DNA of 64,000 nt, from positions 1-64,000 of the forward strand of contig CANSSP010000002.1 in assembly GCA_947649645.1 (NCBI GenBank). The letters are read 5' to 3'. Positions 50,565 through 50,769 of this stretch are shown piece after piece. Origin of the DNA: an uncultured Roseburia sp. (GTDB lineage Bacteria > Bacillota > Clostridia > Lachnospirales > Lachnospiraceae). Each line of letters starts with the position of its first letter. Within the stretch, counting starts at the first letter, position 1. The position numbers and the translations under genes were made by a program. The notes under the pieces were generated by a model that saw nothing but the letters and a program-made list of their open reading frames with translations, did no database searches and was not told the DNA's origin.

Positions 50565-50735
50565 AATCATCTCCATTCCGGAGCGTTTATACGACAGAGC
50601 AGCTGCCATCAGACAGATCTGTGACGCTCCGGCACAAATCTGTCTGTGGAACCCACCCGTTCCCGTCTGCGCGCCACCGCCGTAACTGAAAACCATTCCG
50701 GATACCCCGCATACAGCCTCCGGAGCCTTCCGATA
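50565..50735 (-). promoter_or_regulatory. Structured glpK 5' leader (candidate cis-regulatory RNA)
   Basis: 14-bp hairpin 50610-50623/50633-50646; loop 50625-50632 complementary to 50578-50585 beside the SD. Confidence 0.6.
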
Positions 50736-50740
50736 ATTAC

Positions 50741-50769
50741 AGTATATATTCGGAAACGTAAGAAGTCAA
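50741..50769 (-). promoter_or_regulatory. SigA-type promoter of glpK
   Basis: TTGACT-N17-TATACT on the minus strand. Confidence 0.85.

Follow-up and report, generated by a model that had tools for sequence, protein, structure and literature searches.

What is the structured leader that lies in front of glpK, the glycerol kinase gene, in an uncultured Roseburia species? The question arises from a stretch of 64,000 nucleotides (nt), positions 1 to 64,000 of contig CANSSP010000002.1, here called the window, in which glpK lies on the minus strand. An initial annotation had suggested an undescribed glpK riboswitch or a protein-binding leader. Comparison with other genomes points to a different answer. 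The leader is very probably one copy of a dispersed, non-autonomous mobile ribosome-binding-site (RBS) element of the Lachnospirales, which inserts into the spacer between the Shine-Dalgarno (SD) sequence and the start codon and has a pseudoknot that is under selection.

A dispersed family of copies

When genomes of the same genus were searched with the leader, its 3' part (50651-50561) gave about a dozen matches in the window genome (G000) and more in others. The copies are about 90-165 nt in size and share one layout, an optional hairpin P0 (GTGTGAAAAAT...ATTTTTCACAC), a hairpin P1 with its loop, an optional hairpin P2, an arm, AATGGAG, a spacer of 6 nt and the start codon. P0 is present in 106 of 193 copies, with paired changes. 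Matches to the 3' block ACGCTCCGGAATGGAG, allowing at most one mismatch, numbered 51, 45, 42, 36 and 29 in the richest genomes (51 in G257, 42 in G279 and 36 in G042) and 14 in the window genome, while the reversed pattern, used as a control, gave 0 matches. Covariance model R1 found the element in 76 of 299 genomes of the family (E<=0.001) and model R2 in 17 of 295 genomes of the order; in a phylum-wide sample it was present in two of 399 genomes, one of them the window genome. The named carriers include Acetatifactor, Eisenbergiella, metagenome-assembled genomes labelled Roseburia, Bacterium C-53 and Lachnospiraceae bacterium IMSAGC_005. The nearest relative of a copy was in the same genome for 59 of 87 copies, as compared to 9.8 after shuffling.

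A copy lies 15-24 bases from the start of several contigs (G407 C1, C5, C6, C32 and C134; G257 C14 and C25). Such contig ends indicate that the repeat breaks assemblies, and the copy numbers given for draft genomes are therefore underestimates. No match was found in IMG/VR, searched with the exact pattern, or in plasmids. On a fecal phage contig, MT837007.1, an open reading frame (ORF) is preceded by a member of the CCGCAGGCG subfamily (L269:1211-1329), and another copy (L089) lies before a small phage-like ORF. Phages may be carriers of the element between hosts.

Insertion between the Shine-Dalgarno sequence and the start codon

The start codon is found exactly 6 nt past the SD in 138 of 193 copies. 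In a set of 119 copies, taken from one pattern scan of public genomes where the start codon was not part of the pattern, it is 3-12 nt past the SD in 111 and exactly 6 nt in 87. The orientation of the element is fixed relative to the downstream gene, and 73 of the 104 copies with enough upstream sequence lie less than 150 nt behind a co-directional ORF, so it is likely that most copies are inside operons. Judged by profile, the downstream genes encode glycerol kinase, dihydrofolate reductase, glycerol-3-phosphate dehydrogenase, Ffh, FliJ, acetylglutamate kinase, Hsp33, RNase III, inorganic diphosphatase and FliW, and others, named by reading the start of the protein, include fmt, recG and tatD. 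The element-bearing genes glpK, dfrA, gpsA, ffh, fmt, argB, rnc and fliJ are functionally unrelated.

To look for empty sites, the joined flanks of 24 sites in two sister species, G041 and G042, were used as a query (5761 nt, with argJ as the last site) against the two genomes, and a site was scored as empty where the joined flanks align without interruption in the other genome. For argB the G041 copy was left off the query and its G042 counterpart included, and the site was counted as filled among the G041 sites. Eight of the 13 assessable G042 sites are empty in G041, and six of the nine assessable G041 sites are empty in G042. About 20 sites could be assessed in all, and 14 of them hold the element in one species but are cleanly empty in the other. 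When the empty sites were compared base by base, all 14 insertion boundaries fell downstream of the native SD region and ahead of the start codon, and the native SD is still present upstream of the inserted element. At gpsA the empty site reads GAATGGAG-AGTA-ATATG and the filled one GAATGGAG-AGTA-[131 nt]-AGTA-ATATG; at dfrA the corresponding sites read AAGGC-ATTA-GTATG and AAGGC-ATTA-[131 nt]-ATTA-TTATG.

Direct repeats of 2-4 nt were observed at several empty/filled pairs, and flanking direct repeats are more common than in shuffled sequences (z 6.5, 0/5000). At least 9 nt are shared by the flanks of 20 out of 109 copies, as compared to 5.2 expected and a maximum of 13 in 2000 shuffles, and the element is often preceded by a repeat of its own 3' end or target. 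A long target-site duplication including the whole SD would fit three loci (L099, L339 and L359) but not the case in G219, where the GGGG variant of the element is absent from the 5' flank. In tandem copies (L213 (136), L160 and L299) the second element has inserted immediately downstream of the first element's SD. One site holds differing variants in the sister species, L353 in G042 and L344 in G041, with and without an extra GCAAACTTGTTTGC hairpin, which suggests conversion or replacement between copies. The family has what is expected of a mobile repeat element, multiple near-identical copies with empty orthologous sites and direct repeats at the target beyond those of shuffles.

The same distribution bears on another explanation, that the leader acts in cis as a regulatory RNA to which a ligand or a protein binds, controls dozens of genes together and has been spread by selection for regulation and not as a selfish element. 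The loop and stem sequences are conserved beyond the needs of pairing, the position at the RBS is strict and the pseudoknot adjoins the SD, all of which such a regulon would explain. Nevertheless, we consider it rather unlikely, with target genes that are unrelated, the 14 sites that differ between sister species, and orthologous glpK, dfrA and gpsA without the element in close relatives. A host factor may use the shared leader for regulation as a secondary role of a mobile element.

The pseudoknot and the Shine-Dalgarno sequence of the element

The features of the glpK leader are as follows.

50741..50769, minus strand: promoter-like TTGACT-N17-TATACT, 10/12 match, shuffle mean 0.3
50692..50701, minus strand: direct repeat TCCGGAATGG of the 3' end of the element, on its 5' side; second copy at 50582-50573
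50648..50663, minus strand: GGAAC/GTTCC hairpin, occupying the position of P0 in fuller copies
50610..50646, minus strand: P1 hairpin, arms 50646-50633 and 50623-50610, loop CCGGAGCGT at 50632-50624
50593..50610, minus strand: P2 region GATGGCAGCTGCTCTGTC, short form of a variable insert hairpin; in the alignment most copies have a longer hairpin here
50578..50586, minus strand: 3' arm of the pseudoknot, ACGCTCCGG, partner of the P1 loop from the covariation of family helix 2
50571..50574, minus strand: SD GGAG, part of the element, 6 nt to the start
50560..50650, minus strand: element copy, match to covariance model R2, 83 bits, E 6.6e-18
49050..50564, minus strand: glpK, glycerol kinase (NF000756 3e-248, TIGR01311 4.5e-221), start from orthologs

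The copy is the only significant match to model R2 in the window. The P1 stem of 14 base pairs (bp) with one G-U, CAGACAGATTTGTG (50646-50633) with CACAGATCTGTCTG (50623-50610), and its 9-nt loop can be read directly on the minus strand where the initial annotation had placed them, and the promoter, the GGAAC/GTTCC hairpin and the 10-nt repeat TCCGGAATGG were likewise confirmed. The complementarity it had described between the loop and the sequence near the RBS is real, but the pairing of CCGGAGCGU with ACGCUCCGG comprises 9 bp (50586-50578) and not 8, with the arm 3 nt before the SD. The start codon, on the other hand, had been put directly after AATGGAG. It is instead the ATG at 50564-50562 (MAKYIM...), six bases past the GGAG at 50574-50571, because all glpK orthologs share this start, mostly with MAKY or MGKY, and the spacing from SD to start in the family is 6 nt. 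An upstream ATG at 50696 is in frame through the element into glpK and would add 44 residues (50696-50564); it is probably not used, since the corresponding frame is closed in the relative G053. No other promoter was found in the region, and the same promoter sequence precedes glpK in G053. No terminator was found in the direction of glpK, which agrees with the earlier remark that the hairpin has no U tract. The predicted folding energy of the leader is -73.4 kcal/mol, as compared to -60.2 kcal/mol in shuffles (z -3.5). That the structure is beyond chance follows from its recurrence in hundreds of copies with compensatory changes.

In an alignment of 82 diverse copies the pseudoknot helix is paired in 97.2% of the cells and has double changes at 7 of 10 pairs. 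The alignment was built with model R1 and leans toward this helix, part of which is already included in the structure of the model, but nearly invariant sequences on either side fix the position of loop and arm. P1 has double changes at 7 of 8 pairs, and for P1 and pseudoknot together they are found at 14 of 18 pairs, in 121 cells as compared to 27 in shuffles (0/500). Sliding of the partners lowers the pairing of the whole structure to 32-43%. Whole arm pairs are replaced in subfamilies (CCGAAGCGT/ACGCTTCGG), and other genera have wholly different loop/arm pairs (CCGCAGGCGC/GCGCCTGCGG and TTTCTGAGCG/CGCTCAGAAA). Furthermore, G-U pairs occupy 47 cells and A-C only 8, or 35 and 8 when one column of closely related copies (12 G-U) is removed, and since G-U is far more common than A-C the selection appears to act on the RNA of the mRNA strand. 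Judged from the alignments, these compensatory changes on the mRNA strand, as found in structured cis-acting RNAs, show a pseudoknot that is conserved and under selection.

The initial annotation had left the choice between a pseudoknot by the RBS, which was borne out, and a mutually exclusive fold, which was not. The latter would be a switch where CTCC of the arm pairs alternatively with the loop or with GGAG of the SD. In favour of such a switch, the distance from CTCC to GGAG is 5 nt in most copies, and in the modelled ensembles the SD is less exposed in the nested state than with the pseudoknot. However, the covariation of CTCC with GGAG is not above that of shuffles (465-500 of 500 shuffles are as high), and the CTGCGGAATGGAG subfamily cannot form this hairpin but retains the pseudoknot, which makes the switch improbable. 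With loop and arm held paired, the predicted mean openness of the SD goes from 0.31 to 0.53, rising in 81/142 and falling in 35/142.

A mobile element with this structure would enter the spacer between SD and start codon in one orientation; the empty sites are observed, and gain would be the direction of change. By its sequence it brings its own SD, GGAG, a spacer of about 6 nt and the pseudoknot. After insertion the old SD would lie about 90-165 nt upstream and, because of this distance, the gene would have to be translated from the SD of the element, which we infer to be the one in use. In the mRNA the P1 loop would pair with the arm just upstream of the SD; the pseudoknot would then sequester the arm that is complementary to the SD, and the SD would stay usable. 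Expression would be retained, which would explain how copies can precede genes that are presumably essential. On sequence grounds, action at the initiation of translation is the most likely, as had been proposed for the glpK leader from the start.

Possible movers, known elements and the glpK of relatives

Some observations weigh against a mobile element. An empty site alone does not tell gain from precise loss. Inverted repeats are lacking at the ends and several sites have direct repeats that are short or imperfect, so that the element fits no known transposition chemistry. A search via the P0 end gave no autonomous parent, every P0 match examined in four genomes being a copy of the element, and no linked enzyme was found at the copies. 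The predicted gain in SD accessibility in the pseudoknot state is also modest, with exceptions. We still infer active transposition rather than precise loss.

The end sequences of the element, GTGTGAAAAAT and AATGGAG, do not form a pair of inverted repeats, and in the absence of terminal inverted repeats a miniature inverted-repeat transposable element derived from a DDE transposase was rejected. Spread by RNA into mRNA near the ribosome, with the machinery of group II introns or another reverse transcriptase, would account for a structure on the RNA strand, a target at translation starts and the lack of inverted repeats. Group II introns begin with GUGYG, and many full copies begin with the similar GUGUG. 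This start varies, however (GATTG, GTATG, ATGTG), and reverse transcriptase PF00078 is absent from G000, G042, G279, G155 and G075 despite their many copies, although these are draft genomes and the absence is not absolute. A group II intron or other retroelement is thus a doubtful candidate, and we give RNA-mediated spread little chance. In a single-contig relative (G008:C1) a reverse transcriptase gene, probably for a group II intron protein, was observed in at least 10 near-identical copies. Less probable again is a miniature element derived from REP/RAYT or IS200/IS605 and moved by a Y1 transposase. The terminal hairpin P0, insertion beside a short motif and the lack of inverted repeats would fit, but the orientation is fixed, the copies are unpaired, and the transposase (PF01797, E<=1e-10) is absent from 10 of 16 element-rich genomes, including G000, G042, G279 and G257, again as judged from drafts.

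It is conceivable, as a tentative proposal, that the mobile RBS element represents a new class, one that recognises translation initiation regions as its target. An enzyme or an RNA-level mechanism not yet described would place its structured RNA between SD and start codon, where it would take over from the RBS of the host gene. Even essential genes would tolerate this, and dozens of genes would gradually come under one leader. If so, the ribosome-binding sites of a gut bacterial family would have been overwritten repeatedly by a mobile structured RNA, and mobile DNA would have a new way of targeting, by the spacer between SD and start codon. The sister species would hold a natural library of interchangeable RBS leaders, and the element would give rise to changes in the translation of housekeeping and flagellar genes. 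RNA and repeat annotation now lacks the family, which could be included there.

The element is apparently undescribed. As the initial annotation had supposed for the structure, no match was found among the 4227 models of Rfam 15, even with permissive settings, the best chance hits being eukaryotic microRNA models far below threshold. The core sequence was not found in any paper of the open-access literature searched, and the same literature, which excludes subscription papers and supplementary tables, gave no description of mobile elements at the SD or in Lachnospiraceae. Large surveys of noncoding RNA list mobile or repeat candidates, and in the two that were searched the main text has no mention of Lachnospiraceae. 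We know of no mobile element that targets the spacer between SD and start codon and supplies an SD. If all small structured dispersed repeats are counted as one kind, the element would be a new variant of it.

BOX, RUP, ERIC and Correia (NEMIS) are small, modular, structured repeats, dispersed between genes in varied positions and orientations and transcribed with their neighbours, whereas the element has one orientation, lies in the spacer between SD and start codon in nearly all copies and has a covarying pseudoknot. In H-type pseudoknots such as those of the preQ1-II, SAM-II and pistol type, a hairpin loop pairs with a downstream strand, in riboswitches near the SD. The element differs from these in having no Rfam match, no shared function of the downstream genes and a high and variable copy number. 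The bcr1-type repeats, compared by description and not by sequence, come closest in size, copy number and proposed mechanism; bcr1-bcr18 of Bacillus cereus are described, in the available part of the source, as mobile repeats of 100-400 bp, with up to 130 copies per genome and a mechanism like site-specific recombination at TTTAT (PMC6542083). They are restricted to the B. cereus group, and the same part describes no insertion between SD and start codon and no supply of an SD (PMC6542083). Nearest by position are the TAACTGA repeats of Beggiatoaceae, which lie within several nt of the starts of unrelated genes, including presumably essential ones, and for which a translational role has been proposed (PMC4679880). 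These are arrays of a heptamer, for which a mechanism of spread is not given (PMC4679880); the element is instead a pseudoknot of about 90-165 nt with its own SD and with empty sites in sister species.

A riboswitch or protein-binding leader specific to glpK, suggested by the structure, the good promoter and the lack of a terminator, is hardly credible, as the same element precedes many other, unrelated genes and nearly all relatives have a glpK without it, many with a GlpP-type terminator leader. Among 30 upstream regions of glpK from the same genus, the element was found only in the window genome and in G053, its relative with 95% identity. The stem and loop pairing is thus not conserved in orthologous glpK leaders, as the initial annotation would have had it, but in the dispersed family instead. 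A glpK riboswitch was rejected because the aptamer is conserved neither at glpK orthologs, apart from G000 and G053, nor at functionally linked genes.

In the GlpP-type antitermination leader of glpK a U tract follows the terminator hairpin. Such a leader was rejected for the window genome, where no leader terminator hairpin with a U tract was found in the direction of glpK and the element takes its place. In the next relatives, whose glpK proteins are about 90% identical, the leader is a typical GlpP-type one with a terminator, and an AGGAGG of their own adjoins the ATG. It appears that this leader has been lost in the window genome and G053, where the element is present, and the control by glycerol may therefore have changed. 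Many relatives retain the GlpP-type leader (GAGAGTGGAGATGATTTT ... ATCTCCTTTTTT) upstream of glpK (L241-L248, L253-L254 and L258-L259).
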